DNA of 64,000 nt from Pseudomonadota bacterium (GTDB lineage: Bacteria > Pseudomonadota > Gammaproteobacteria > Xanthomonadales > SZUA-38): the NCBI GenBank assembly GCA_039033415.1, contig JBCCCR010000010.1, positions 1 to 64,000 on the forward strand. Direction: 5' to 3'. Both the position numbers and the translations under genes were made by a program. This document shows positions 2,151-20,625 of the stretch, piece after piece. Numbering within the stretch: position 1 is the first letter of the stretch; each line of letters begins with the position of its first letter. The notes below the pieces were generated by a model. The model ran no database searches. It saw nothing but the letters and a program-made list of their open reading frames with translations, and was not told the origin of the DNA.

Positions 2151-5100
2151 TTATTCGAAGCCGTTACGGAAGAGGCTCTCGCCAACGCTGATGACCACTT
2201 CAGCCTGGCCGGCAGCTGCACCATCGGTTACACCGTAGGTGAAGCGTTCGACGCCGGAGAAGTTGGCGTTGGGCTCGTAGGTGAACGTGCCGTCGGGGTT
2301 AACCGTCAGCGTGCCGTTCTGCACTCCTGAGAGCACCTCGTAGGCCAGCGTGTCGCCATCGATGTCGGAGTCGTTGTCGCTGAGGTTTCCAGCTACTTCG
2401 GCTCCAACCGCCGTGTCAAACGACTCACCTTGGATGACCGGGACGTCGTTCACCGCTGCGATGTTGATGTTCACCGCTGCGACGTTCGAGCTGTCCACAC
2501 CGTTGTTCACCTGGAAGGTAAATGCGTCAGCACCGTTATAGTCGGAGCCAGGCATGTAGACCAGGTTCGGCGCGGTACCCGACAGCGTTCCGCTCACCGG
2601 TTGACTCAGCAAGGTGTAGGAAAGCACCCCACCCTGCGGGTCGAAGCCGGACAGCGTAATGGCGATCGGCGAATCCTCACTCGTGGTGGTCTCCAGGGCG
2701 TTAGCAATCGGCGGTCCGTTCGGATCGCTCACGGTGATGGACACCGTGGTCTCTGCCGAAGAGTCAGTGCCGTCAAGCGCGACGAACTGGAATGAATCCG
2801 TACCGACAAAGCCCGGGTTGGACGTGTAGGTCAGCACCGGCGGAATACCCGTGAGGGCGCCGTTGCTGGGCAGATTCACCACCGCGTAATCCAGCGCTGC
2901 GGTCTCCACGTCGGTTGCCGTCAAGGTGATAGCAACAGAGGTTCCCGAGTTGGTAGCCAGATTTTGCGGATCAGCCATGGGTACATCGTTGATCGAGTTG
3001 ATCGTGATCGCCACGGTCGCTTCGTTGGAGGTGGAGGTTCCATCGCTGGCGGTGTACGTCAGCGAATCCACACCGTTGAAGTTCTCGTCTGGCGTGTAGG
3101 TCAACGTCGGCGGCGTACCGCTGATGGTGCCGTTGCTGGGACCGCTAGTCACCGTGAAGGTCAGCTGATCGCCGTCTTCGTCGGTTCCACGCAGCCTCAC
3201 GAACGTTGCCACGTCCTCATCGGTTCTCACGTTACGGTTCAGCGCAACCGGAGGCGTGTTGCCCTGGTCGACCGTCACCGAATCGCTTGACGTCTGAGTA
3301 CCCGGACCCGGAATCGGATCGCCGCCGGCATCACTCGGATCACCGCTCGCCGTTGCCTCGATGGCAGACGGCAGCCCGCTGGGCGCGGCAACCACGAAGT
3401 AGTAGGTCAGCTCACTGCCCGGTCCAAGCGGCGGTGTTCCGACCTTCAGCAGCATGTCGTCCAGCGTGATGTTGAGGGACGGCACTTCGACACTCAGGTT
3501 CGAGAAGAACGTGTCGCCGGTGTTCGCCAGATCCACACAGAAAGTGAGGGCCTGAGTCGTCTCGGCGGGGAACGTGTCGGAACCGCCACCGACGGCACAC
3601 AGGTCGCCAGTATCGGAACCCAGGTACGCGGTCAGTGACAGAGACAGACCCGGTGCACCTTCAACCGTCAGACCCAGCGGCTTGGCTTCTGCCTGGTTGA
3701 CGAAGTTACCGCCAACGTTCAGCTCAGCACTGTAGCTGCCGAAGGGCAGTGACGTTGAGTCGAAGGTTAGATCCAGCATCGCATCGCTGCCGGCGGGAAT
3801 TGTTCCAACCTCGGGCTCAGCGCTGGCCCATGGCGTTGCCAGGGTCAGGTTAGCCGGCTCGACGGCGTAGATGGCGCTGGTGGCATTACCGACCACATAC
3901 ACCACACCGTTCGGATCCAGCCTGCTGCGGACCAGGTCGTTAATGAAGTCATCCGGAATGGCCGCGAGCGGCGTGTTGACGCCGAGGCTCGTGCCGAAGA
4001 TGTCGGTGATTTCAGACTGCGTCACCTGACCGGCAGAGATCTCACCCACCAGCACATCCAGCTTGCCTTCGATGACATCCAGGCCGTTACCAAACAGGCC
4101 TGCGCCGGTGTCGAGGCTGGTCTGCGGAACCGGATAACCCGGCAGCAGATTACCCAGACGATCCACAGCGTAGATGTCGTCCGTCACGATGTCGATGTAG
4201 AAGAACGCGTCGAGCGTTGCGTCGTATTCAACACCGGTGATCAGACCACCAGGCGAGGTCGGCGGGATGAAGAAGTTCAGGAAGTTACCGTCGAGGTCGC
4301 CCTGAACCATTGCCGGGAAGTCAGCGTCCAGCCACCACAGGGTGTTGGTTGAGCTGTCGAAGGCCACACCGGTGGTCGTGCCGAAACTCGGATGCTGAAT
4401 CGTTTCTTCGATAAACAGCGAGGAGTTGTAGCGCACGGTGTTGCCGCTGAACAGGTCAGCCACCCAGATGTCTCCTTCCGGCGACATGGTGATACCGAGG
4501 GGTGAACCCTCTGGATACGGTGCTGACAGCAGGACGTCACCTGGCAGTGCCGTGAAGTCGGCAGGCCCGCGCTGATACTCAGGCGCAGTAAGGGCCGCTG
4601 ACTCACCGGCAGAACTGCGCCGGCCGACTGCGTTGTTGTTGCCCGAGGCTGACAGCGGTGCCGCCGGCAGACCGAAGTCGTAGCTGCCAATGTTCACCAG
4701 GTAGTCGAGGGCCAACGTGCCGAGGTTGCTGAGGACCAGCGGGTTGGTGACCGACTCGTTGCTGCCCAGCGTCTCAACGACCGCCGAGGAGTCAAACGCG
4801 ATGGCAGGCGCATCGACCGCAAAGTCGAATACGGTGATACCACCTTCGGTGACTTCGACGTTGATCGTCGGATCAACATCACCACCGTTGGGTACATCGA
4901 TCTCCAGCACGTAGAAGCCGGCGGTCAGGACGTCGAAGCTGTAGGAGCCATCTTCGCCGCTGAGGGCCGTAACGCTGGCACCGGCACGGGTCGCTGTGAT
5001 GAGGGCACCTTCGATCGGCAGCGAGGTTCCCGCAACCGTGACCGTACCTTCAAGCGATCCACCACCGGCACTGCCGCCGACACCACACGTGGTGACCAGG

Positions 5101-8009
5101 AACTGCTCCATTAGCGCATCCCGGTTGGGTTGCGTCGGAACAGCCGGGAACGAGAAGCCCAGGTAAGCAGCGTTGTAGACGCCGTTGCTGACGCCGGTAG
5201 CGGCGACCTGAGAGTTGTTTCCGGAATCACCCTGGTAAGTGATGGTGTCTGGACCAATCGGGTCGAGCTGGTCGCTGAAGTTGCTAAAGCCAGCAGCGCC
5301 GTAGTCCAGGGTGTAGGGACCGAGGCCGGCAAACGCGTTGTCGCCAGTGACCGTACCCTGCGCGACGTCAGACTGGCCTGCGGCAACGCCGAGGTAGTCG
5401 GTCATCAGCGGGGTCAGTCCCTTGTCGAAGAAGTAGTCTTGCGAGCTGATCAGGAAGCAGCCGCCGCCATCGAGGTAGCTGGAGATCGCTACTTCGCTGT
5501 CGGCCGAAGGACCTGAGGTGCCCGGGAAGCCAAACTCGTCACCGCTGAACCAAACCACGGCCTGGTAGTCGCCCAGAGTTGCGGCGTCAGGTTCGGTGGT
5601 GTCGCTGTTCAGAGTGTCAAAGACGTCGAAGGTCAGGCCGAGGTTCTGCAGCGAGTCTGCATAGAAATCGCTGACGTCAGGCGTGTTGTCATCGTCGTCG
5701 ACGAGCAGTACCAATGCCCCAGCCGCCGCTGCCACCGTGAAGGTGTTCACCGGCGAAGTGGCTGACTCGCCACACGGGTTGATCGCTGCGACGCGCCAGA
5801 AGTAGTCGCCAGGCTCCAGATCCATGTCTACGGTCAACGTGGTCTCGGTGGATTCCTGATCGACGACAATGGCGCCAAACTCACTCACCTGGAGGCGATA
5901 GCTGGTGGCGCCAGGTACGGCGGCCCACTCAAACGTGACGGTGCCGCCGATGTCGCGGATGCCGTTCACGGGCGCGATCAGTTCAGGTGCGTTCGCCGGT
6001 ACCCCATTAGATACGCCCACGGTAACCGGAACGGCCCCGTCTTCGAGACCTGCGGCAGAGCCGATGAGGTCGAACGTATAGCTCCCAGAAGCGACGCTGC
6101 CGTCAACGGAAATCTGCGCAACGGTAGATCCTGGCGTCGGGTCAACTGGGTTGGCGGTGAAGTCCACCGTGAAGCCAGCCGGCAGGTTAGCCGTGCTCAT
6201 GTCCACAGGATCAACAGCGCCCGTGCTCAGCGCTACGTCAAGACCGATGTCCTCGAGGTTGCCCGGAGTACAGACCAGCTGTTCGGTGTTGCCGGTGTTT
6301 TCGGTCAGCACAACGCGGTCTACGCCGCAGCTCTCAAACCGGAACGAGCACACGCGCGTGTTCCAGGTGACTGCGCTGGTGGCCGCGTAATACTCAGTCG
6401 TGTACCAGAAGGTACAGTTGTCGACCGGGTCAACGCTCATGGAGGAGTAGTCCACCCAGCGATCAGATCCGGTCTGGACGCCGCCGCCGTCGACACAGGA
6501 GGCTTCCGTTTGAAGCGTGCCTGCCGGGTCGGTGGCCTCGCGACCGGTGTAGTAAATTGAAGGCTCGGTGTTTTCGCTGCCCAGCGAGTAGCCGATGCCG
6601 ATGTTGCCGGAGATATCCATCGCGATAGACGGCAGCCAGCGATTCTCGGAATCCGGCGCAAAAACGCCTTCATCAACGATGCTTGAAGCGCCGGAGGCGT
6701 AGTCGATTTCTACCCAGCGCACGCCCGCCTGATCGCCTCCGACGTCAACCGTGTGGCTGAGAACCAAACGGGTTGAATTCGGTGCGGAAGTCGGATTAAC
6801 GCGGATTGCGGCCCGATACATCGTGAACTGACTGAGCGAATCGAGCAGCTGAGGCGTACCCGGCTGTGGGATACACGCGCCAAAACCGCAAAGTTCGGAG
6901 TCAAACTCGGCGGCAGATTCAAGCAGGGTTGGTGCCGAGAATGTTGAGTTAGCCGGCGTGTCGAAATCCGGGCAGAATTCCCAGATTCGATACCCGTCGG
7001 GTCCACCACCCACACCCCAGACTTCATCGTCAAAGGCCTGGATGATGACGTTACAGGTACCCGCGGGCGCAACGGCCGTTCCTTCAATGTGGCCTGGCTG
7101 CAGGGCAAAAGCAAAATCTGGGCTGCTGCCTGCCAGGTCCTCGAATTCGATAAAGGTTGCGGTCGGATCACCAGCCAGCATCGCGTCGCGATCGGCAGCG
7201 ATGATAGACACGCCTCCGAAAGTTCCGCCGGGGAAGTTGTTGGTGGTCAGGTAGTAACCGCTGCTAGCGCCGGTCTCGTCATCGAAGATTCCGATTTTCG
7301 GATAGTCGATGCCCGGAATGGCGTACTCGTAAAGGTTATAGGCACCCAGGGGATCGTTGGTCTGGGAGATCGCGAAGCACTGGCGGCCGTTGGCGGAAAC
7401 TGGCGCAGCAAACTGCGAGAAAAGCCAGCGATCGGCGACTTCGTCATACAGAACAATCGGGTCACCGTTGTTGTTCGATTCGCAGAGTCCGCCGAAACCT
7501 GTCCAGAAAATATTTCCTGGCAGGGGGCCTGCTGCGAGTGAACCGTCAGCCTTATTGAAGATCTTGACGCCCAGGTTCATGTACTGGATGTAGAAATTCA
7601 GACCGACGTCACCGTTCGGGTCAGGGGGCGAAATCTGGCCGCCGAAGACCTCAACGTTGTCCAGGTTGTTGTAGCCGTCGAAGCTCAGATCCAGCGTCGG
7701 AGCGCGCTTATCGGTTGGCGCTTTGCGAGTCGGATCGAAGGCCGGTGCCTGCTTGCGGCCGCGATCGAGAAAATCGGGCTTCAGAATGTTAGGCACGGTT
7801 TGCGGCTTTTGTTGCTCGCTGGGTCGGGCCGGTTGGTTGGCCTCAAATTCTCTGGCGAGCTGCCTCAGCGGCGGGGATACGCCGGTTCGCACGGCCTCGT
7901 GGACCTGTGGACCGTCTTTGGTTTGCGCCAGTGCAAGTGGCCCAAAGACCACGCTGGCGATAAGTAGTGGAACGAGGGTATAGAACCCCCTAAACGAGCG
8001 TCGTTTCAC
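2151..8009 (-). CDS. Giant multidomain secreted protein with cadherin-like repeats and C-terminal GFE motif
   Basis: A 1952-residue exported protein starting at GTG with a GGGAGG site 6 bases upstream. Residues 1-29 form a signal peptide ending PLALAQ. In order: a surface-protein propeller-like domain (about 120-570; PDPNGDVG, GDPIVLYDEVADRWLFSQF); an Ig-like domain and a fibronectin-III-like segment; a ThuA/amidotransferase-fold-like domain (LVLLVDDDDNTPDVSDFY...); a carboxypeptidase-regulatory-like domain (LEGTVTVAGTSLPIEGALI); an NHL/SMP-30-like propeller (SPEGDIWVADLFSGNTVRY); and at least four tandem cadherin-like repeats of the NxxPVA...DEDxxxF...LTYTPDENFNG type. The chain ends exactly in SLFRNGFE, a motif shared with four other exported proteins in the window. 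No catalytic site was recognised; an adhesion or surface-matrix role is inferred. Confidence 0.85.
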   Translation of the reverse strand: MKRRSFRGFYTLVPLLIASVVFGPLALAQTKDGPQVHEAVRTGVSPPLRQLAREFEANQPARPSEQQKPQTVPNILKPDFLDRGRKQAPAFDPTRKAPTDKRAPTLDLSFDGYNNLDNVEVFGGQISPPDPNGDVGLNFYIQYMNLGVKIFNKADGSLAAGPLPGNIFWTGFGGLCESNNNGDPIVLYDEVADRWLFSQFAAPVSANGRQCFAISQTNDPLGAYNLYEYAIPGIDYPKIGIFDDETGASSGYYLTTNNFPGGTFGGVSIIAADRDAMLAGDPTATFIEFEDLAGSSPDFAFALQPGHIEGTAVAPAGTCNVIIQAFDDEVWGVGGGPDGYRIWEFCPDFDTPANSTFSAPTLLESAAEFDSELCGFGACIPQPGTPQLLDSLSQFTMYRAAIRVNPTSAPNSTRLVLSHTVDVGGDQAGVRWVEIDYASGASSIVDEGVFAPDSENRWLPSIAMDISGNIGIGYSLGSENTEPSIYYTGREATDPAGTLQTEASCVDGGGVQTGSDRWVDYSSMSVDPVDNCTFWYTTEYYAATSAVTWNTRVCSFRFESCGVDRVVLTENTGNTEQLVCTPGNLEDIGLDVALSTGAVDPVDMSTANLPAGFTVDFTANPVDPTPGSTVAQISVDGSVASGSYTFDLIGSAAGLEDGAVPVTVGVSNGVPANAPELIAPVNGIRDIGGTVTFEWAAVPGATSYRLQVSEFGAIVVDQESTETTLTVDMDLEPGDYFWRVAAINPCGESATSPVNTFTVAAAAGALVLLVDDDDNTPDVSDFYADSLQNLGLTFDVFDTLNSDTTEPDAATLGDYQAVVWFSGDEFGFPGTSGPSADSEVAISSYLDGGGCFLISSQDYFFDKGLTPLMTDYLGVAAGQSDVAQGTVTGDNAFAGLGPYTLDYGAAGFSNFSDQLDPIGPDTITYQGDSGNNSQVAATGVSNGVYNAAYLGFSFPAVPTQPNRDALMEQFLVTTCGVGGSAGGGSLEGTVTVAGTSLPIEGALITATRAGASVTALSGEDGSYSFDVLTAGFYVLEIDVPNGGDVDPTINVEVTEGGITVFDFAVDAPAIAFDSSAVVETLGSNESVTNPLVLSNLGTLALDYLVNIGSYDFGLPAAPLSASGNNNAVGRRSSAGESAALTAPEYQRGPADFTALPGDVLLSAPYPEGSPLGITMSPEGDIWVADLFSGNTVRYNSSLFIEETIQHPSFGTTTGVAFDSSTNTLWWLDADFPAMVQGDLDGNFLNFFIPPTSPGGLITGVEYDATLDAFFYIDIVTDDIYAVDRLGNLLPGYPVPQTSLDTGAGLFGNGLDVIEGKLDVLVGEISAGQVTQSEITDIFGTSLGVNTPLAAIPDDFINDLVRSRLDPNGVVYVVGNATSAIYAVEPANLTLATPWASAEPEVGTIPAGSDAMLDLTFDSTSLPFGSYSAELNVGGNFVNQAEAKPLGLTVEGAPGLSLSLTAYLGSDTGDLCAVGGGSDTFPAETTQALTFCVDLANTGDTFFSNLSVEVPSLNITLDDMLLKVGTPPLGPGSELTYYFVVAAPSGLPSAIEATASGDPSDAGGDPIPGPGTQTSSDSVTVDQGNTPPVALNRNVRTDEDVATFVRLRGTDEDGDQLTFTVTSGPSNGTISGTPPTLTYTPDENFNGVDSLTYTASDGTSTSNEATVAITINSINDVPMADPQNLATNSGTSVAITLTATDVETAALDYAVVNLPSNGALTGIPPVLTYTSNPGFVGTDSFQFVALDGTDSSAETTVSITVSDPNGPPIANALETTTSEDSPIAITLSGFDPQGGVLSYTLLSQPVSGTLSGTAPNLVYMPGSDYNGADAFTFQVNNGVDSSNVAAVNINIAAVNDVPVIQGESFDTAVGAEVAGNLSDNDSDIDGDTLAYEVLSGVQNGTLTVNPDGTFTYEPNANFSGVERFTYGVTDGAAAGQAEVVISVGESLFRNGFE

Positions 8010-9784: not shown

Positions 9785-12700
9785 TCAGTCAGCGCCTAGG
9801 GCGATGCCTTCCAGCCGATCCTCGAGCTCGTCGCCGGCCCGGTTGAGCGCTTCGAGCGTCTCCTCATCCGGGGACCAATAGTTCCGTTCGTGTGCCTCGA
9901 TCAGGCGATTGGCCAGTCGTACCGACGCTTTGGGGTTGAGCTCAGCAATACGCTTACGCATCGCTTCGTCCAGCACAAAGGTCTCGGTCACCCGCTGGTA
10001 CACCCATGGGTCGACCTGGCCGGTGGTGGCCGACCAGCCGACCGTATTGGTCAGCTGCGCTTCGATTTGCCGCACACCCTCATGGCCGTGTTCGAGCATC
10101 CCTTCAAACCACTTTGGATTCAGCGTTCGGGTGCGTGTCTCGAGCGCCACCTGCTCGGCCAGCGTTCGGATCTTGCCTTCGCCCTGGGTCTGGTCGCTGA
10201 TGTAGGTGGGCGCCGCCTCTCCTTTCGCACACTTGACGGCCCGGCCGATGCCGCCGAGGGTGTCGAAGTAGTGATCGATGGTGGTCACACCCAGCTCCAC
10301 CGACTCCAGATTTTGGTATGCCAGATCAACCTTGGACAGGACACTGTTGAGGAGCTCCGGCTGCGCGGTGGCGGTGCCCTTACGATTAAAGGCAAAACAT
10401 TTACGCTGGCTGTACGCCTCGGCGAGTTCGTCATCGTCATTCCAGCTGCCGCTATCGACCAGCATATTGACGTTGGCACCGTAAGCGCCCTCAGCATTCG
10501 AGAAAACCCGCAGAGCGGCGGTTTCCAGATCGGTACCGTTACGCGCCATAAATGCCAGCGTGTTGGCCCGCACAAAGTTCATGGGCGCCGGTTCGTCTTC
10601 GGCGCTTGCCGCCAGATACGCCGCCTCGGAAAGCAGCCGCGTTTGCAGCGGCAGCAAATCGCGGAATATACCCGACAGGGTGGTCATCACGTCGATCCGC
10701 GGTCTGCCGAGCTCCTCCAGCGAAATCAATTCGGCGCCACAGACCCGACCGTAACCATCAAAGCGGGGGCGCGCGCCCATCAGCGCCAGCGCCTGCGCGA
10801 GCGGCGCTCCTTCAGACTTCAGATTGTCAGCCCCCCAGAGCACGAGCGCGATCGTTCGGGGCATGGGAGACCCGTCTGCCATGTGGGTGTCGAGTAGACG
10901 CTGCGCCTGCCGCTCGCCGTCCTGCATGGCGAACGCGGACGGGATGCGAAACGGGTCGAAACCGTGGATGTTGCGGCCCGTCGGCAGCACCTCGGGGTTA
11001 CGAACGATATCGCCTCCGGGTGCCGGCGCCACAAAACGCCCATCCAGCGCTGCCACGAGGGCCGGCAGCTCCGCCTCGTGGGTCAGGAGTCGATCGGTCT
11101 CAGCCAGCTCGACGAGCAACGATCGGTGTTCGGTGTTGTCCGCCAGCTCGTCAGGCGTGACGCCGGCAACGAGTTGGCCAAGCGTATCCCGAGAGACCTC
11201 GCCATCATCGCGGCTCGCGGCAATGGCGGCCAGCATATCAACCCGATCCTGCTCGCTCGGCGCAACGCCGACGACGTGAAGGCCATGGGGAATTAGCGCA
11301 TATTCCATTTCCAGGATTTTCTGGCCCAGCGCTGCCGCTTCCTGTGCGGGGTTTTCCCAGGCCGGCTCAGCGGGCGCCAGATCCACAAGCGCCGCCTGTG
11401 CCTGGATCAGTTCGAGCATCTCGGCGAGCTCGTTTTTGGCCGTTGGCGGCGTGCCGCGATAGCGCTCTAGCGTCGCCTTTAGATCATTGAGCCCCTGATA
11501 CAGGCCCGCCTCCGTCAGCGGTGGCGTCATGTAGCTGATCAGCGTGGCGTTGGCTCGACGTTTGGCCAGCGCGCCTTCGGAGGGATTGTTGGCGGCATAG
11601 AGATAGTAGTTCGGCAAGTCGCCGATCAGTCGATCGGGCCAGTCGGCCTCGCCGAGGCCCGACTGTTTACCCGGCATAAACTCAAGGGCCCCGTGGGTGC
11701 CGAAGTGCAGCACCGCGTGGGCGTCGAAATCTTCCCGCAGCCATCGGTAGTAGGCGCTAAAGGCGTGAGTCGGCGCAAACCCCTTTTCAAAAAGCAGCCG
11801 CATCGGATCGCCTTCGTAGCCGAAGCTTGGCTGAATGCCGACAAACACGTTGCCAAACCGCTCTCCCAGCACAAACAGCGACGAGCCTGAGCTCAGCTGG
11901 CGCCCCGGCGCTGGGCCCCATTGCGCCTCGATCTCAGCCAGGTGGGTTTCCCGGCGAACGTAGTCATCCACCGCGATCACCTGGTGTACGTTGGCGTCCT
12001 GCCCATAGCGCGATGAGTTGCCGCCGAGCACGCGATCACGCAGCTCGTCGACTGTCTCGGGAATCTCAACGTGATAGCCCGCGACCTTCAGCGCACCCAG
12101 CGTTTGATGCAGCGACTCAAAGACCGACAGGTACGCAGCGGTGCCGGTGGCGCCGGCGTTCGGCGGAAAATTGAACAGGGTGATCGCAAGACGACGGTCG
12201 GCGCGCTCCGCGTGTTTCAGACGCACAATCTTCTGCACTCGGTCAGCCAGCCGGTCGGCCCGCTCCGTGCAAGCGATCATGTCTCTGCCGGCGGCGCCGT
12301 CTTTAAATTCACACTGGCGGGAACAGCCCTCACAATGCCCGCAGGTTGAACTCGAGCGTCCGCCAAACACCGAGGGTACGGTCGCACCGTCGATTTCTGG
12401 AATGGCGACCATGATGGTCGACTCCACCGGCGAGAGCCCGCGGTCGTCCTGGTTCCATTCCTCCAGCGTCTGAAATTCCAGCGCGTGGGCCGCCAGATAG
12501 GGCACATCCAGTCGCTTAAGTATTTCCTCCGCGGCCGCAGCATTGTTATAGGCGGGACCCCCAACCAGTGAAAAACCGGTTAGCGAGAGCACCGCGTCAA
12601 CGGTGGGTTTGCCGTCGCGCATAAAAAACCGTTCGATCGCCGGCCGCTGGTCCAGCCCGCTGGCAAACGCCGGCACAACGCGCAGGCCACGATGCTCCAG

Positions 12701-13510
12701 CGCCTCGATTACCCCATCGTAATGGCGCGCATCGCCGACCAGCACGTAAGAGCGGAGCAGCAGCAGACCAACCGTTGGCGCAGCGTTTTTCGCCGGGAGA
12801 TCTTCCAGCGATTCGGAAACCTTGTCTCGCAGGCTTGGATGATACAAACCCACTTCGGGATACTCGATGGGCGGCGGCACGTCGCCAGCGCCGGTGCCGG
12901 TCACGTACTTGGCGACAAGCAACCGGATCATGTTGGCGACGTTCTCGTCCGATCCGGACAGCCAGTACTGCATCACCAGGAAATACACGCGCAGATCTTG
13001 CGCCGTTCCCGGAATAAACTTCAGGATCTTGGGCAGGCGTCGCAACATGGCCATCTGCCCGGCGCCCGTGTGGCCGTTTTTTACACCCGTCTCTTTTTTG
13101 GGTCGAAGCTTCTTGAGCAGCGCCAGCGGACCCTTGCGCTCTCTCTTCATGTCGAGCTGGCCCATACGTGTCAGCTTGACCAGCTCTTCCGTTGATACGC
13201 AGCACACCATCGCTTTGCACTGCTCTCGTCGCTGCACGAGCGCGGGCATGATCGCTTGGACCTGATCGTCGACAAACATCATGGAGCAGACCACCAGGTC
13301 CGATGCGCTGACATCCTTGATGGCCGACGCCAGAGCGTCGGGATGGTTCGCCCACTCGGTGGCAGCATGCAGGCGGATTTCCAACCCCGGATAGTGCTTT
13401 GCAAGCGCCTTGTTGGCTCGCCCAATGGAGGCCGCCAGGTGTCGATCCAGGGTCACGATTGTCAGCAGGATCGACTGTCCAGCTTTTTTCTTATGCTTCG
13501 TTTCCCGCAC
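9785..13510 (-). CDS. bchH: Magnesium chelatase subunit H (Mg-protoporphyrin IX chelatase)
   Basis: The large subunit that binds protoporphyrin IX and receives Mg2+ from the BchI/BchD AAA+ motor, the first committed step of (bacterio)chlorophyll synthesis in the cytoplasm. The frame extends to an ATG at 13561 (1258 residues). The GTG at 13510 is preferred because GGAGA lies 9 bases before it, giving 1241 residues, normal for BchH. The N-terminal BchH-specific domain (LLTIVTLDRHLAASIGRA, GQMAMLRRLPKILKFIPG, MQYWLSGSDENVANMIRLLV) separates it from CobN. The shared CobN/BchH core has VLHFGTHGALEFMPGKQSG and NNPSEGALAKRRANATLISY. No bchI, bchD or other photosynthesis gene is in the window. Its promoter carries PpsR/CrtJ boxes and it diverges from an aerR/ppaA-like gene. 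Confidence 0.93.
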   Translation of the reverse strand: MRETKHKKKAGQSILLTIVTLDRHLAASIGRANKALAKHYPGLEIRLHAATEWANHPDALASAIKDVSASDLVVCSMMFVDDQVQAIMPALVQRREQCKAMVCCVSTEELVKLTRMGQLDMKRERKGPLALLKKLRPKKETGVKNGHTGAGQMAMLRRLPKILKFIPGTAQDLRVYFLVMQYWLSGSDENVANMIRLLVAKYVTGTGAGDVPPPIEYPEVGLYHPSLRDKVSESLEDLPAKNAAPTVGLLLLRSYVLVGDARHYDGVIEALEHRGLRVVPAFASGLDQRPAIERFFMRDGKPTVDAVLSLTGFSLVGGPAYNNAAAAEEILKRLDVPYLAAHALEFQTLEEWNQDDRGLSPVESTIMVAIPEIDGATVPSVFGGRSSSTCGHCEGCSRQCEFKDGAAGRDMIACTERADRLADRVQKIVRLKHAERADRRLAITLFNFPPNAGATGTAAYLSVFESLHQTLGALKVAGYHVEIPETVDELRDRVLGGNSSRYGQDANVHQVIAVDDYVRRETHLAEIEAQWGPAPGRQLSSGSSLFVLGERFGNVFVGIQPSFGYEGDPMRLLFEKGFAPTHAFSAYYRWLREDFDAHAVLHFGTHGALEFMPGKQSGLGEADWPDRLIGDLPNYYLYAANNPSEGALAKRRANATLISYMTPPLTEAGLYQGLNDLKATLERYRGTPPTAKNELAEMLELIQAQAALVDLAPAEPAWENPAQEAAALGQKILEMEYALIPHGLHVVGVAPSEQDRVDMLAAIAASRDDGEVSRDTLGQLVAGVTPDELADNTEHRSLLVELAETDRLLTHEAELPALVAALDGRFVAPAPGGDIVRNPEVLPTGRNIHGFDPFRIPSAFAMQDGERQAQRLLDTHMADGSPMPRTIALVLWGADNLKSEGAPLAQALALMGARPRFDGYGRVCGAELISLEELGRPRIDVMTTLSGIFRDLLPLQTRLLSEAAYLAASAEDEPAPMNFVRANTLAFMARNGTDLETAALRVFSNAEGAYGANVNMLVDSGSWNDDDELAEAYSQRKCFAFNRKGTATAQPELLNSVLSKVDLAYQNLESVELGVTTIDHYFDTLGGIGRAVKCAKGEAAPTYISDQTQGEGKIRTLAEQVALETRTRTLNPKWFEGMLEHGHEGVRQIEAQLTNTVGWSATTGQVDPWVYQRVTETFVLDEAMRKRIAELNPKASVRLANRLIEAHERNYWSPDEETLEALNRAGDELEDRLEGIALGAD

Positions 13511-13601
13511 TAAACGTTGTCTCCAATGAGGCCGCTGCAGCCCAAACACCCGTGGATGCATCCCTTAACACGCATCCGTAATGACGGGCTTCCGACGTCC
13601 C

Positions 13602-13629
13602 ATAATAGTTATTCGACAGACTGTGTCAA
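13602..13629 (-). promoter_or_regulatory. Sigma70-like promoter for bchH
   Basis: On the minus strand, TTGACA (complement of 13624-13629) and TATTAT (complement of 13602-13607) are separated by 16 bp and point into bchH. The -35 lies inside PpsR box 1, so occupancy would block RNA polymerase. Confidence 0.65.
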
Positions 13630-13641
13630 TTAATATTGACA
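13624..13641. promoter_or_regulatory. PpsR/CrtJ box 1 (TGT-N12-ACA)
   Basis: TGT at 13624 and ACA ending at 13641 are 12 bp apart. The dyad extends outward to 9-bp perfect arms (13622-13630 and 13635-13643, TGTGTCAAT/ATTGACACA). TGT-N12-ACA is the established recognition sequence of the PpsR/CrtJ photosynthesis repressors. Confidence 0.75.
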
Positions 13642-13664
13642 CACTTGTTTGTCTAACATATCTT
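13636..13664 (+). promoter_or_regulatory. Sigma70-like promoter for the aerR/ppaA-like gene
   Basis: TTGACA (13636-13641) and TATCTT (13659-13664) are separated by 17 bp, about 160 bp before the GTG at 13824. The -35 sits in PpsR box 1 and the -10 in PpsR box 2, the arrangement known for CrtJ-repressed promoters. Confidence 0.55.
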
Positions 13665-13667
13665 ACA
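13650..13667. promoter_or_regulatory. PpsR/CrtJ box 2 (TGT-N12-ACA)
   Basis: A second TGT-N12-ACA (TGT 13650-13652, ACA 13665-13667) lies exactly 8 bp after box 1. Paired boxes about 8 bp apart are the cooperative binding layout described for CrtJ at bch promoters. Confidence 0.7.
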
Positions 13668-13823
13668 AATATGGGGTAGAAAAAGCTGGCCCGGTTTTGC
13701 GTCGTCTAGCGGCGTAAATGGGGGCTCTGTGACCCTGAAGCTGACCCAGGATCACCACCCTAGTACGCGCGTCGTCGAGGCGCGCCAGTCAGCCAGCGAT
13801 GCTGAAAAGGACAAGCAGGACTC

Positions 13824-14684
13824 GTGACATCGGACTCTCTTCACGCCGGCAACGGTGAAGCCGGGCTTACAGAAGGCCCCGGCTCGATCAGCCAGCCTGG
13901 TCCGCTGCACCGCCTGCCCGAGGAGTCAATCACAGAGATTGCGGGCGACATCATTGCCAACCTGGCCGATTCGCTGGCCAGCACCCTGGCACCCAACGGG
14001 AGTGACGCCGACCGGCTTTCGCCCCTGCAGCTGGATCTGTTTTGTGAGGCGCTGACCTGCCCCGACCAGCAGCGCGCCGAGCGAGTCATCGATCAGGCGA
14101 TCTTAAGCGGCGTGTCGATGGACACGATCTATCTTGGCTACTTTGCCGGCGCCGCCGAGCGACTCGGCGAGTGCTGGCAGGAAGACACCCGAACCTTTGT
14201 AGAGATGACCATCGCCTCCGGACGGCTCCACGCCATCCTGCGGAAGCTCCGACGATCGCTGGTGCCACCGCTACCCAATAACTCACGGCACGCGTTTTTT
14301 ACCGCCGTCCCCGGTGAATACCACACGTTGGGCGTGACGATCGCCGCTGATATGTTCCGCCGGCGCGGCTGGGACATCGAGGTGGAAACCAGCAAACCGC
14401 ATAAGGAGCTCGTGTCGCTGTTCTCCCGCTCCGACCATCAGTTTCTAGGCATTTCAGCCAGCCGGCCTGACATGATCATCAGCCTGGCCAAACTCATTTT
14501 GGATTGCCGGGTGTCTAAGCCACGCGCCCACATCATGGTCAGCGGTCATATCACCGATCTGGAACCAAACCTTGGCAACCTGATCGACGTCGACTTTATT
14601 GCGCAAGACGCGCACTCCGCGATCGATCACATGGAGCAGGTCCGACTCGACTGGTTGAGCTCAGAGCCCGCCAAGCTGCTGTAA
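13824..14684 (+). CDS. AerR/PpaA-type cobalamin (SCHIC/B12-binding) photosynthesis regulator
   Basis: This 286-residue cytoplasmic protein has a helical first half (about 30-145), including DLFCEALTCPDQQRAERVIDQAI and LGECWQEDTRTFVEMTIASGRLH. A B12-binding Rossmann-like domain follows (about 150-280), with FFTAVPGEYHTLGVTIAADMFRRRGWDIEVE and a central HIMVSGHI strand. This helical-plus-B12-fold layout is that of AerR/PpaA, antirepressors of PpsR/CrtJ that use cobalamin to relieve repression in light. The strictly B12-dependent-enzyme motif DxHxxG is not evident, as expected for this regulator group. It diverges from bchH across the two PpsR boxes, which strongly supports the role. Start is GTG with AGGA close upstream. 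A generic MerR-associated B12-binding regulator is the alternative. Confidence 0.78.
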   Translation: MTSDSLHAGNGEAGLTEGPGSISQPGPLHRLPEESITEIAGDIIANLADSLASTLAPNGSDADRLSPLQLDLFCEALTCPDQQRAERVIDQAILSGVSMDTIYLGYFAGAAERLGECWQEDTRTFVEMTIASGRLHAILRKLRRSLVPPLPNNSRHAFFTAVPGEYHTLGVTIAADMFRRRGWDIEVETSKPHKELVSLFSRSDHQFLGISASRPDMIISLAKLILDCRVSKPRAHIMVSGHITDLEPNLGNLIDVDFIAQDAHSAIDHMEQVRLDWLSSEPAKLL

Positions 14685-14949
14685 GCCGCCAGGCCCTCTC
14701 ATTCTCCGGCAACCTCGGTGCCTTTCCTCCGATGGCCCCCTCCCCGTCTCGGGACCTTCCCCTCGGCGGACAAACGAAGGTCCTGACACCGCGCCTCCAT
14801 GGGTCAAAACAGACCCTTTACTAAGTTTTTTCTGTGGGTCAGACAACGGTCAACAGATGGTCACCCGGGCGTCATTACTTGCGGCCGCCAACCCTGAATA
14901 CTGCCCTCCATACGCATTCAGCAACACCCAAACACTGGAGGAACCCCTT

Positions 14950-15636
14950 ATGAAACGCACGTTGATCTTGGCCTACGGGGCCCTCAGCTATCTGCTCTTT
15001 TTGGTCGTCTTTGTATACGCGATCGGCTTCATCGGCAATTTCGGCACGCCCACCAGCCTCGATGCGGAACCCACGCGGCCGATGCTTGAGGCGCTATTCA
15101 TCAACTTTGGGCTGCTGTCGCTGTTTGCCCGGCAGTGCAGCGGCATGGCACGGCGGGGATTCGAGGCACGCTGGACAAAGATCATTCCGCAGGCCGCGGA
15201 ACGCAGCACCTATATCCTCTTTGCTTCGGTCGCGCTGGCAGCCCTGATGGCGTTATGGCAGCCGGTCGGAGGACTCTGCTGGAACGTGACCAGTGAGGCA
15301 GGTCGCATCACCCTGATCACCCTCTATGTGGTCGGTTGGGCGGTCGTGTTGGTCAGCACTTTCTTGATCAACCACTTCGATCTCTTCGGCCTGGCGCAGG
15401 TGTGGGCAAACTTCCGCGGACGCGCATACCGGCACCCAGCGTTTTGTACGCCAGGGCTTTACCGACTCGTGCGCCATCCGCTCTACGTCGGCTGGATTAT
15501 CGTCGCCTGGGCGACGCCGACGATGACCCTCGCGCATGCGGTTTTTGCTCTTGTAAGCACCGTCTATATCGTCGCGGCCATCCAGCTGGAAGAACAGGAC
15601 CTGGTGCATTACCACGGCGCCGACTACGTGCGCTAG
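14950..15636 (+). CDS. MddA/NnrU-like membrane S-methyltransferase, apparently short at the C terminus
   Basis: This 228-residue membrane protein starts at the ATG after GGAGGAA (14938-14944). It has about five hydrophobic segments. The family wording IGFIGNFGTPTSLDAEPTRP, LLSLFARQCSGMARRGFEARW, PQAAERSTYILFASVALAALM and the methyltransferase motif LYRLVRHPLYVGWIIVAWATP match methanethiol S-methyltransferase (MddA) and related isoprenylcysteine-methyltransferase-fold proteins. MddA makes dimethyl sulfide from methanethiol using SAM. The protein stops at EEQDLVHYHGADYVR with an amber codon, about 10-20 residues before family members usually end, and the frame stays open beyond it. The substrate is inferred from family resemblance only. 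It follows aerR in the same direction, so light-linked control is possible but unproven. Confidence 0.7.
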   Translation: MKRTLILAYGALSYLLFLVVFVYAIGFIGNFGTPTSLDAEPTRPMLEALFINFGLLSLFARQCSGMARRGFEARWTKIIPQAAERSTYILFASVALAALMALWQPVGGLCWNVTSEAGRITLITLYVVGWAVVLVSTFLINHFDLFGLAQVWANFRGRAYRHPAFCTPGLYRLVRHPLYVGWIIVAWATPTMTLAHAVFALVSTVYIVAAIQLEEQDLVHYHGADYVR

Positions 15637-15645
15637 CAACACCCG

Positions 15646-18600
15646 TTACCGTGGCTCGAAACCGCTCTGGAAAATGACTTCCGTTTTGACCGGTTGGCGC
15701 TCGGCCGGGGGTCCAAGGGTCGATTCCTGACCCCGAGCCGAGAAACTGGTTACACGATAGAACGCCTTCTGTTGCGAAGTTCCGGTGACGTCCAGATAAC
15801 CGTTCGTAAACGTCGTTCCGATTGGCAAATACGTTTCACCATCGGTCGACCGGTAGATCCGGTAACCCACGACACGCAAATCGTTCACCGGGGTAAAATC
15901 GATCTGCGTTGTTCGCGTTCGCGGGCTGGTTTTGACCAACGTGATCGCCGGCTCCGGGAGCTGGCCAAACAGGCGAGTGAGCTGATTGTTGCTGCCGTTG
16001 CGGTCTGAGAACTCACCCTCGGGATCGATGTTTACGTACAGACGATGAATTTCGTCGGGGAAGTCACCTTCCGCAAAGCCAATGGAGTATTGGCGCGTTG
16101 CACCGCTGAATCCAGGGTCGGGGATCGTCTCAAACCACACGCTTCGGCCGGTATCCGGCGGGCCGTCCCAGCTCAGACGGATCGGCACCTCGCCATCGAA
16201 AGGCGCCCCGCGGTTCACGAAACGAACGGTGATCGGCAGGAAAGGATCGGGCCATTCAGCGTCCGCCGTGATGCTGACAACCGCCAGATCGGGAACGTTG
16301 CCCAGGCGGTTCAGACGTGGACCTGAGCCATTGCCGAGCCGGCTTGAGCCTCCAGCAACGCGACGTTTGCTGCCGGGCAAGTTCTTGCCAGCAGCCAACC
16401 CCTCGGCCGGCGCGCTGGTCACCAGCAACTCGTCCAGCAGCGGGTCATAAGCCATTTGCGGATTGAGGTTGAGCGCGCCGTCGACCGTCAGTGGTTCCAG
16501 AAAACTCGCGTTGGTTTCCAGATCCAGGCTGACCATGGCGAGATCCCCCAAACCACTGATGGCGCCGGGGCTGTCGTCGGCGCGCGCCAGCGGCTGACCG
16601 CTCAGGCTCCCGTAACCCAGATGTCGGAAGACCATGACCGCAAAACCTTCTGGGGTGACTTCAAGCTGAGGCCGTTCCACGTAGATTCGGCGCTGGTCAT
16701 CGTCCAGAATCTCCTGCTCAGCCCAGGTGCAGGGCTGCATGGTGCAGTCAGCAACAGCGAGGCGCAGGCTGCGCCGATTACCGAGGAAAGCGGCCGGGTC
16801 TGTCGCTGCCGAGTAGGCCACGATGAGCCGGTCCAGCGAGTCACTCCGCACGGTTGGCGATGCCACCCCTTTGGACAGTTCGGTGGGAACGATGGCGGTA
16901 TCGGGGCTGTTCAAAAAGCGGTAAGCCAACTCCCGCTGGGAGAGATCGGCCAGGCTGCGACTTTGGTTACGCACCCAGACCACAACGGGATTGCCGCTGA
17001 CGTAGGTTGCGCTGGGCTGCAGTTCCTTGAAGTTGCTGCCTGGATCGACTTGTTCCGGAATGGACCAGCTACTGCCGTTAAATCTTGAAAAGAAGACGCG
17101 CTGATTGCCTGCCAGATCACCATCAAGGTCCCGGGTCCAAACGGCCAGCGCCTCACCGTCAGCGGGACAACCGGATCCTCGCACAGGGTCATCGGCACAG
17201 ACCGCCAGCTTCACCCCGCCCTCGCCGCCGTTGGGTAGCGTCAGGTCCATCGGCGCCGACCAGCCGCCGTCCTCGTAGAGCGCGTAGCGAAGATGCTGCT
17301 GGCTGCTGACCGGCTGCCAATCGCCAGCAAAGCCACGGGCGCCAAAGTCTTGCCGAAACTGTTCGAACGTCTGCTCATCGAGGCCGCTCTGTGCCCAAAC
17401 CATCAGGCCTCGAGTTCGGCTGAACCAGACCGTGTCAAGGCCGGTGACGCCTCGCGGGCTCGCAATGGCCAGCTGATCGATCAGGCTGCCGCCGGCTGAG
17501 ACTTCCTGAGAATAGATGTGCCCGTCATCACCGACCCAGGCAGCCAGCGAACTGCCACGGCCATTGCTGGCGATGCTGCTATGCCGGCCGCTGAGCTGAG
17601 GCCGGTTGATCTCATCGCCTTTACTCACATCAAGCCGGAGCGCGCTCCGCTTGGCATCGGGGCAGATGGTCCCGGGACTGCTCGACGGGCATCCGTTTCC
17701 TTCGCACAGATCAACCGGCGTAAACGTGCCGCCAGCGCCGATACATAATGGACATACACCGACCGAAACCTCATAGCTGAGACGCAGGAGGAATTTGAAC
17801 AGTTCCTCGCTGGTTTGCGGCGCACCGTCGATGACGCAAAACGGCATTTCGATGCCAATCTGCGGGCTGGCGGTCATGTCCAGGCTCACGATATCGAACA
17901 GAATTGAGACATCGATAAACAAATCGAGGCCGGCCTGAACGACCGGATTGATTTCGACCCTGCTGGTGACGCTTTCGCCGATGGTGACCTGGCCAAAATA
18001 CGTCAGCAGCAGCTTGAACCAGAAATCGACGCCCAGCGTTGCGTCAGCGATCGGCGGCACGCCCCACACATAACGAAACAGCGGGATCTTGCCGGTGTCG
18101 ATCAGCGTCTGTGGAACCGGACTACCAAACTGCATCGTGCCCACGCCGCCGCTCAGCGGCGGTGGATTCAAGCCTGACGGGACGTTTGCCGGAACCCGGT
18201 TCATCGCCTGGTTGTCGCTCATACCAAAGCGACGAATGCCCGAAAAGCCGTGCGAGTCGACCGTCTCTGTCAGGATTGCGTCATTGTGGGAGTCATTCTG
18301 CAGCGTTCCGATGTCGTATTCATTCACCGTCGCGGAAACGTCCAGCATCTGGGGTTTTTCGTTGGCGATCAGCTCCAGTCTGTCGGGCGACCAGGCGATT
18401 CTTGGATTCTCGAGGGAGTCGGCCGCGAGCCAGTCGGGTCCCGATAGGACCACCAGCTGGAAATCGCGCGAAACGGGCTTGTCGCTAGCCTGCAGCGAGG
18501 CTTCCAGCCGCAGCGTGTGGATACCAGGCTCAAGCCGATGCGCGTTCGGAATCGTCGTTGAGTATTGGTCCCCTTCGACGCTACAGGTCTCGCCGTCGGT

Positions 18601-20499
18601 TGTTACCGCTAGGGAATAACGCGAATTGCCGAACTTGAGCGTGACGTTCTGCAGCGCGCCAAATGTGAGCGCGTCGTGGACGAAGCGCACCTCCAGCTCC
18701 CGGGAAATATCGAACATGGCGTCGGGGAAACGGGAACGGTCCGGGTAGCCGTAAATCGCGCTGAATCTTAGCAAAGGCTCGGAATTCGGGCTTTCCCTCG
18801 TTGCCAACCCTACGGTTAACCCCGGCATGAACGGATCGCTATTCAGCTCGAGCTCGTCAGCGTTCACGGGCGGAAACACAAACGAGAGATTATTGCTGGC
18901 CGAGTTCCCAAACAGCACCGGATATTGGTTGGTATCTGGGTCCTCTCCGGGCGCGGGCAGCGTCAGCTCCAGGTTGCCTTCATGGAACTTGTTGGTCTGC
19001 ACGTCGTAGAAGAATGGGTATACGGCCCCCGTCGCCTGTCCGTTTGCGTTGATAAAACCGTAACTCTGCTCCTCGTCCAGCAAACTCAAGGCGTTCATCT
19101 TGAGCTGAAGCGGAAAATAGCGCGTCCAGGGTGGCATCGCCCCGGGGACGATGTCCCCAAGCTGCTCGAGAACGCTGCCCGTGGCGTTGAGCGCCTTCGC
19201 GACAAAAACCATGTGCTCAGGATCGAGCGTAAAGGTGAATTCACCGTTGGCATCGGTGAATCCCCGCGCAAGGGACAGCGGACAAGAGAACCCGGGGTTG
19301 CTGACCAGATTGCCTACATCGCTGATCCAATCCGAGAACTGGTTGACGGTTTGGAAGGCTCCGGACCCGGCCACCTGTCGAGCGAGATCGCAGTTGCCCT
19401 CGGGGCAATCCGGATCGATCAGGATGCCACCCTGAAGGTTGATGAGAGCCCCTTCCAGCGGCTCGTCATCGCTGAAGCCTTTTATCAACTTCACTGTCAG
19501 CGTTTTGGTTGGCAGAGGCGTCCCGGGGTTCAGCCTGCCCAACGGCACGCTGCCGCTGCGCTCACCTGGTGAGATGAACACCAGCCCGCCGTCAACGGTG
19601 CCTTCGTTGAAGCTGGGCCACGTAGCGTCGCCAGACAGAATGCTCACACCGCTGACATCGGCGGAAAAAGCGCCGTCCGCATCGAGCGTCGCCGGCCCAC
19701 GGTTCACCGGCAACATGATGCATTCGGTGATGTGGTCAGGCAGCGCGCCGTCTTCCGGACAGACCGAGGTGACAATCGAAACGCGTGCATCGGGGTCCTG
19801 CAGCACGCGCGGTGGCAGTTCGAGCTCTCCCGAAACGCGCGTTCGCTGCCGCCGGTTTAGCGGTTCATCGGGTAGCTCTGCCGTGACGGCCCTGGGAACC
19901 GTGTAAGGGCCCTCCCCTTCGAGGATCGAAAAGGGTTCACTCACATTCACCAGAATCAAGCGGCCGCTGCGACCTCGGAGCTGTATGTCCACCTCTGCTG
20001 GGTTGAGCGTTCGCTGAAAGGGCACGATAAACTCACCTTCCAATTCTCCCTGGGCAGCCTGCGGACCAAATAGCCGCAACCCTTCGAGAAACAGCGTGTA
20101 CTGACCAAATGGCAGATTGCTGGCCAAAAAGCTCACGCGTTCCCCCGGCGCGGCGGCCGGCGGATCAAACGACACCTGCGCCGGCGCCGCAATCGTCACC
20201 GACTGCGAGACAACCAGCGTTCTAGCGGCATACAGCTCAAGCAGGTAATTGCCGGGATCCACGCGCGGCATGGTGGCGGTAAGCGAGAGCGCGCCGATCC
20301 GGTCGGCGGTGCCGCCGGCAAGGGGCCAGTTTGTGCCTGAGCCATCGGCCAGCTCGAGCTCATAGCTGATTCCCGGCGTGAGACCACCGATATCGACCAG
20401 CACCTCAGACACAGGCGTTGGCGCCGGCGGCGAAACGGTTAGCGCTGCCGCCTGGCTTGCCATCACAAAAAAACACAAAACAATTCGAAAAGGGCGCAT
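15646..20499 (-). CDS. Giant secreted protein with CARDB-like and FN3-like C-terminal domains and GFE motif
   Basis: A 1617-residue exported protein. The ATG at 20499 is chosen because AGGA precedes it by 8 bases and it opens directly on the signal peptide MRPFRIVLCFFVMASQAAA; the frame itself extends to 20565. The N-terminal third has Ig-like strand-rich segments (PTPVSEVLVDIGGLTPG, ISYELELADGSG). The centre is cysteine-containing and unassigned. The region about 1000-1350 has repeated strands reminiscent of a propeller. Near the C terminus a CARDB-like domain (LAVVSITADAEWPDPFLPI) precedes an FN3-like domain (DLRVVGYRIYRSTDGETYLPI). The chain ends VIFQSGFEPR, a copy of the shared C-terminal motif. 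It diverges from the ECF sigma/kinase pair across 126 bp. Function unknown; likely cell-surface or extracellular. Confidence 0.82.
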   Translation of the reverse strand: MRPFRIVLCFFVMASQAAALTVSPPAPTPVSEVLVDIGGLTPGISYELELADGSGTNWPLAGGTADRIGALSLTATMPRVDPGNYLLELYAARTLVVSQSVTIAAPAQVSFDPPAAAPGERVSFLASNLPFGQYTLFLEGLRLFGPQAAQGELEGEFIVPFQRTLNPAEVDIQLRGRSGRLILVNVSEPFSILEGEGPYTVPRAVTAELPDEPLNRRQRTRVSGELELPPRVLQDPDARVSIVTSVCPEDGALPDHITECIMLPVNRGPATLDADGAFSADVSGVSILSGDATWPSFNEGTVDGGLVFISPGERSGSVPLGRLNPGTPLPTKTLTVKLIKGFSDDEPLEGALINLQGGILIDPDCPEGNCDLARQVAGSGAFQTVNQFSDWISDVGNLVSNPGFSCPLSLARGFTDANGEFTFTLDPEHMVFVAKALNATGSVLEQLGDIVPGAMPPWTRYFPLQLKMNALSLLDEEQSYGFINANGQATGAVYPFFYDVQTNKFHEGNLELTLPAPGEDPDTNQYPVLFGNSASNNLSFVFPPVNADELELNSDPFMPGLTVGLATRESPNSEPLLRFSAIYGYPDRSRFPDAMFDISRELEVRFVHDALTFGALQNVTLKFGNSRYSLAVTTDGETCSVEGDQYSTTIPNAHRLEPGIHTLRLEASLQASDKPVSRDFQLVVLSGPDWLAADSLENPRIAWSPDRLELIANEKPQMLDVSATVNEYDIGTLQNDSHNDAILTETVDSHGFSGIRRFGMSDNQAMNRVPANVPSGLNPPPLSGGVGTMQFGSPVPQTLIDTGKIPLFRYVWGVPPIADATLGVDFWFKLLLTYFGQVTIGESVTSRVEINPVVQAGLDLFIDVSILFDIVSLDMTASPQIGIEMPFCVIDGAPQTSEELFKFLLRLSYEVSVGVCPLCIGAGGTFTPVDLCEGNGCPSSSPGTICPDAKRSALRLDVSKGDEINRPQLSGRHSSIASNGRGSSLAAWVGDDGHIYSQEVSAGGSLIDQLAIASPRGVTGLDTVWFSRTRGLMVWAQSGLDEQTFEQFRQDFGARGFAGDWQPVSSQQHLRYALYEDGGWSAPMDLTLPNGGEGGVKLAVCADDPVRGSGCPADGEALAVWTRDLDGDLAGNQRVFFSRFNGSSWSIPEQVDPGSNFKELQPSATYVSGNPVVVWVRNQSRSLADLSQRELAYRFLNSPDTAIVPTELSKGVASPTVRSDSLDRLIVAYSAATDPAAFLGNRRSLRLAVADCTMQPCTWAEQEILDDDQRRIYVERPQLEVTPEGFAVMVFRHLGYGSLSGQPLARADDSPGAISGLGDLAMVSLDLETNASFLEPLTVDGALNLNPQMAYDPLLDELLVTSAPAEGLAAGKNLPGSKRRVAGGSSRLGNGSGPRLNRLGNVPDLAVVSITADAEWPDPFLPITVRFVNRGAPFDGEVPIRLSWDGPPDTGRSVWFETIPDPGFSGATRQYSIGFAEGDFPDEIHRLYVNIDPEGEFSDRNGSNNQLTRLFGQLPEPAITLVKTSPRTRTTQIDFTPVNDLRVVGYRIYRSTDGETYLPIGTTFTNGYLDVTGTSQQKAFYRVTSFSARGQESTLGPPAERQPVKTEVIFQSGFEPR

Positions 20500-20625
20500 C
20501 GCTGATCCTGATTTAGCCATTGCTCTCTTTGCAAAGGCCGAGCGCGTTGGCAACCGCACTCCCAAACCCCAACCAGCGCCAGGGATTCAAGCTAGAATCA
20601 AGGCTCACAACCGCCGAGTCGGGTC

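Follow-up and report, generated by a model that had tools for sequence, protein, structure and literature searches.

In R. capsulatus, the bchC promoter carries two TGT-N12-ACA boxes separated by 8 bp, which lie at -47/-30 and -21/-4 and cover the -35 and -10 elements; CrtJ alone represses this promoter aerobically, and AerR changes the action of CrtJ (PMC5362033). In R. sphaeroides, PpsR sites lie between the AerR-family gene ppaA and bchFNBHLM, the bch operon that contains bchH (PMC4344238). PpsR-type TGT-N12-ACA motifs are also found over the -10 and -35 of bchF in Dinoroseobacter shibae (PMC10890935), and the crtI gene of Rubrivivax gelatinosus is preceded by a pair of PpsR boxes with the 8-bp spacing (PMC4452267). 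In a survey of ten AAP clusters, bchFNBHLM was conserved in every one (PMC3176799).

The locus described here lies in a 64-kb stretch (the window) of contig C10 of a draft genome of 62 contigs (G000), that of an uncultured photosynthetic bacterium, and combines elements of these systems. The second species of the genus is represented by a metagenome-assembled genome (G001, Lysobacterales bacterium IP29b_bin.149); both genomes show the same junction, and direct comparisons of conservation are between these two congeners, which share approximately 93% protein identity. The favored reading, to which we assign a probability of roughly 0.78, is that a double PpsR/CrtJ operator overlies two back-to-back sigma-70 promoters and controls bchH together with an AerR-like gene, here called aerR2. 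The product of bchH carries out the first committed step of bacteriochlorophyll synthesis.

Twin boxes and divergent promoters

The sequence-only reading had placed two TGT-N12-ACA sites exactly 8 bp apart at 13624-13641 and 13650-13667, which is right to the base. Predicted box 1 (TGTCAATTAATATTGACA; no strand assigned), the 8-bp spacer (CACTTGTT, 13642-13649), and predicted box 2 (TGTCTAACATATCTTACA) form a complete element of 44 bp. Box 1 is a near-perfect palindrome whose two arms form TTGACA -35 hexamers on opposite strands, and box 2 holds the plus-strand -10 hexamer. On the plus strand, the aerR2 promoter consists of TTGACA at 13636-13641 and TATCTT at 13659-13664 with an N17 spacer (10 of 12 consensus matches), and its -10 is kept in G001. 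The bchH promoter on the minus strand consists of TTGACA at 13624-13629 and TATTAT at 13602-13607 with an N16 spacer (11 of 12 matches); its -10 reads TATGAT in G001, and both forms are good. Shuffled sequence contained 0.3 promoters, compared with the 2 seen. The plus-strand -35 in box 1 and -10 in box 2, as well as the minus-strand -35 in box 1, had all been claimed in exactly this form. Since the two -35 hexamers are separated by only 6 bp, RNA polymerase probably serves one promoter at a time.

Transcription is predicted to start at approximately 13671 for aerR2 and approximately 13595 for bchH. With a plus-strand start at 13671, the boxes would occupy -47/-30 and -21/-4, whereas a bchH start near 13595 would put box 1 at -46/-29 and box 2 upstream at about -72/-55. 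The description of the element as the published CrtJ architecture thus fits the aerR2 promoter, which has the bchC register, and does not fit bchH, where only box 1 lies on the -35. The predicted aerR2 leader of approximately 153 nt (13671-13823, plus strand) gave no Rfam match to a cobalamin riboswitch, or to any other riboswitch, at gathering scores. A 32-codon open reading frame in the leader (GTG 13730), overlapping the aerR2 start, is broken in G001 and was discarded.

bchH outside the photosynthesis gene cluster

The bchH gene, encoding magnesium chelatase subunit H, occupies 9785-13510 on the minus strand (NF009942, 2087 bits against a cut-off of 1166). CobN models scored below their own cut-offs for this protein, and no other bchH in the genome exceeded the family cut-off. 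The ATG at 13561 given as the start in a mechanical list of open reading frames is lost in G001, while the GTG at 13510 and an upstream GGAGAC are kept, and the start was therefore placed at GTG 13510.

The photosynthesis gene cluster (PGC) is located on contig C8 and includes ppsR, pufLM, bchCXYZ, crtE/B/C, bchI/D, acsF, puhA, bchM, L, B, N, F, and bchP. There is no bchH between its bchB and bchL genes. As bchH is in its usual place in four genomes of the same order (G003, G026, G078, and G064), as well as in the ten AAP clusters, the gene stands apart in this genus, where it has left the bchFNBHLM operon. Trees of BchN, BchB, and BchF join the genus with G078 (98/97), and the BchH tree does not; the AU test gave a P value of 0.039 for holding the two together in the BchH tree, in which the branches are long. 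A separate origin of bchH is possible, with the caveat of those long branches. No other divergent bchH-aerR pair turned up when BchH loci were fetched from sampled genomes (398 from the order and 369 from the class) or when AerR loci were taken from 398 genomes of the phylum and 369 of the class. The separation of bchH from bchFNB recurs in another gammaproteobacterial family, f117 (L131 = G716:C23; L132 = G502:C1), where G716 carries one exact TGT-N12-ACA approximately 140 bp upstream of its bchH match.

The sequence-only reading depended on the presence of a ppsR gene, and a PpsR/CrtJ homologue was found in the PGC (G000:C8:55393-56697; 404.6 bits, cut-off 275.4). The protein has an intact FIS-type helix-turn-helix (HTH), NNRASAADMLGLSRQSLYVKLRRYG, along with the universal HTH cysteine C426. 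Its second redox cysteine is replaced by isoleucine; the cysteine is present in most of the alphaproteobacterial PpsR proteins aligned and is absent from the other gammaproteobacteria aligned. Between G000 and G001, protein identity is 97% for PpsR, 94% for BchH, 92% for AerR2, and 73% for the ppsR-linked AerR (locus L023:1183-2172). The ppsR-linked AerR thus diverges fast between the sister species, which PpsR and AerR2 do not.

Downstream of aerR2, 14857-15636 encodes an MddA-type methanethiol S-methyltransferase (287.7 bits; cut-off, 270), with the same gene order in G001. The window also contains two very large secreted-looking proteins (2151-8009 and 15646-20565) that end in FRNGFE and FQSGFEPR, possibly a C-terminal sorting-type tail.

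AerR2 and the solo AerR clade

Homology and phylogeny assign the product of aerR2 (13824-14684, plus strand) to the AerR/PpaA-like B12-binding proteins. The best match in the PDB is R. capsulatus AerR (7te2; E value, 2e-11). AerR2 has both the helical cap and the B12-binding domain: the motif containing the cobalt-ligand histidine reads PGEYHTLG, compared with PGEQHTLG in 7te2, and the Trp/Phe cap is kept in the aligned segment GECWQEDTRTF (residue roles are taken from PMC9144470). The gene does not lie beside ppsR and instead adjoins bchH. Three AerR-like genes are present in the genome, namely, aerR2, a paralogue on contig C48 (AerR3), and the aerR of the PGC, which sits directly before ppsR (C8:54631) and whose product is 27% identical to AerR2. 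Because ppsR has its own aerR, AerR2 is considered an AerR-like protein of a solo clade rather than the AerR orthologue, and the suggestion that PpsR would here control its own antirepressor went too far.

In a tree of 36 proteins, all of the ppsR-linked proteins fell on one side and all of the unlinked proteins on the other (94/82). AerR2 and AerR3 form one cluster (100/98) within the unlinked side, the rest of which comprises the alphaproteobacterial family f233 and one Sulfitobacter sequence; PpsR was present in all ten of the solo-AerR f233 genomes tested. Among the 15 unlinked aerR genes, 9 had an exact box in the 450 bp upstream (0.94 expected), with 15 box sites in total (0.98 expected), compared with 1 of 10 ppsR-linked aerR genes (0.57 expected). 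Because this test set out from the window aerR2, the count is also given without it (8 of 14). AerR3 (G000:C48:27733-28470, L022/L044; G001 L045:7817-8758) is 44% identical to AerR2, and its gene is preceded by two TGT-N12-ACA boxes approximately 218 bp apart, both kept in G001. The proximal box is identical between the species at 18 of 18 positions, and the distal box retains the TGT, the ACA, and a few other letters, the rest of the stretch having diverged.

No account of a "solo" AerR was found in the literature searched. We tentatively suggest, at slightly under even odds, that the solo clade represents a second, distinct branch of PpsR co-regulators that depend on B12, and that its genes are themselves PpsR targets, forming a feedback loop, in one family of alphaproteobacterial phototrophs and in this Lysobacterales genus, where the loop would have been wired directly onto the relocated bchH by way of a single operator shared between two promoters that exclude each other. 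It may instead be that the boxes are PpsR operators and that the neighboring B12 protein works independently, as a sensor of B12/light or heme, and is merely co-regulated with bchH, as the separation of its clade from the ppsR-linked proteins, its low identity to the PGC AerR, and the coexistence of three AerR-like genes could suggest. We regard an independent sensor as unlikely, about one chance in four, since the closest solved relative of AerR2 is AerR itself, with the ligand histidine and Trp/Phe cap kept, and since the solo genes occur with PpsR in every genome tested and are enriched in PpsR boxes.

Operator identity, proposed control, and known systems

The features of a PpsR operator coincide at 13624-13667: paired, closely spaced TGT-N12-ACA palindromes that overlap the -35 and -10 of a photosynthesis promoter, as judged from sequence, in a genome that encodes a cognate PpsR. 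Single TGT-N12-ACA sites are common (717 in the genome, compared with 702 for a reversed control pattern), so a lone box carries little meaning. The exact twin with an 8-bp gap occurs once in the 6.4-Mb genome and the control twin not at all. When one mismatch was allowed, six 8-bp twins were found in G000 against one for the control, and three of the six lie at photosynthesis promoters: the window pair, the divergent crtE/crtC region inside the PGC (C8:37957), and crtI on contig C5 (C5:55727), where G001 has the same TGT/ACA letters. The PGC of G003 contains exact twins as well, with a 7-bp gap at crtE and an 8-bp gap at bchC. With the crtE/crtC, crtI, and G003 twins taken into account, the window pair is the best example of a type of operator that recurs at several photosynthesis promoters in this lineage. 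The near-perfect crtI twin (L161:3727 = G000:C5:55727; L162:3403) precedes a crtI-like phytoene desaturase gene; another desaturase-like gene is adjacent, and the contig is separate from that of the PGC.

The looseness of the TGT-N12-ACA pattern and its many genomic copies leave some room for another regulator of TGT/ACA palindromes, of the LysR type or RegA/FIS-like, to use the element in place of PpsR. The twin spacing, the register, the targets (bchH, crtE/C, and crtI), and the resident PpsR with its conserved HTH favor PpsR and make such a regulator improbable. FNR is also unlikely, because box 1 has CAAT..ATTG and not TTGAT..ATCAA. PpsR control of the twin element is well supported by these sequence features.

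G001 shares the divergent bchH/aerR pair, both boxes, their spacing, and the promoters. Identity between the two species is 17/18 in box 1, 8/8 in the gap, 16/18 in box 2, and 21/23 in the next 23 bases, so that the block at 13624-13690 is almost unchanged, compared with 92/133 in the aerR leader and 74/91 in the bchH leader. All 12 of the TGT/ACA letters are kept, and the three changes within the boxes all fall in the N12 segments. The boxes could have arisen by chance upstream of a constitutive bchH, as the A+T content of the stretch is high and TTGACA hexamers alone favor TGTCAA/TTGACA boxes; the confinement of the changes to N12, the absence of twins from 20,000 composition-matched Markov shuffles of the bchH/aerR intergenic region, and the frequency of 0.003 twins per shuffled 64 kb make chance very improbable. 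That the hairpin at 13622-13643, listed as terminator-like, is a transcription terminator is least credible of all, as it simply is the box 1 palindrome, has only three G-C pairs, and lies between two divergent starts where no gene reads into it.

From the sequence, we infer the following scheme for PpsR acting at the double operator. PpsR dimers bound side by side on both boxes would block RNA polymerase at bchH and aerR2. Because the arms of the palindrome supply TTGACA on each strand, a single dimer bound to box 1 would cover the -35 elements of both promoters, which would most likely switch off the two genes together. Conversion or countering of PpsR by an AerR-type protein would release both genes at once, with the closely spaced promoters probably used in exclusion of each other. 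AerR2 itself most likely binds cobalamin, contacts PpsR, and modulates it, which would provide feedback. The element would stand in for the operon control that was lost when bchH left bchFNBHLM. A key bacteriochlorophyll gene outside the PGC would thereby be controlled by PpsR through a self-contained double operator, which it shares with the gene of a B12-type co-regulator. The locus also points to an AerR-like clade that has been overlooked and is controlled by PpsR; this would give a well-studied light/oxygen switch an additional feedback arm.

The known systems resemble this locus in part. The aerR2 side would have the same register as R. capsulatus bchC if transcription starts at 13671, but the window pair also serves a divergent bchH promoter through the shared box 1. 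D. shibae differs in having four motifs, at bchF and within the PGC. The Rubrivivax crtI pair has its counterpart in the 8-bp pair at crtI in the window genome, although the Rubrivivax boxes are degenerate and binding at the 8-bp spacing was not redox dependent (PMC4452267); for that reason, and because the second redox cysteine is absent, oxygen control is not assured here. The principle of shared control is not new, as R. sphaeroides ppaA and bchFNBHLM are already known to be arranged in this way (PMC4344238). R. sphaeroides, however, has a ppsR-linked ppaA and the whole bchFNBHLM operon, whereas in the window bchH stands alone outside the PGC, its partner is a solo aerR paralogue, and a single box holds both -35 hexamers. 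The novelty lies in the relocation of bchH as a single gene, in the solo paralogue, and in the way that the two promoters overlap within one box.
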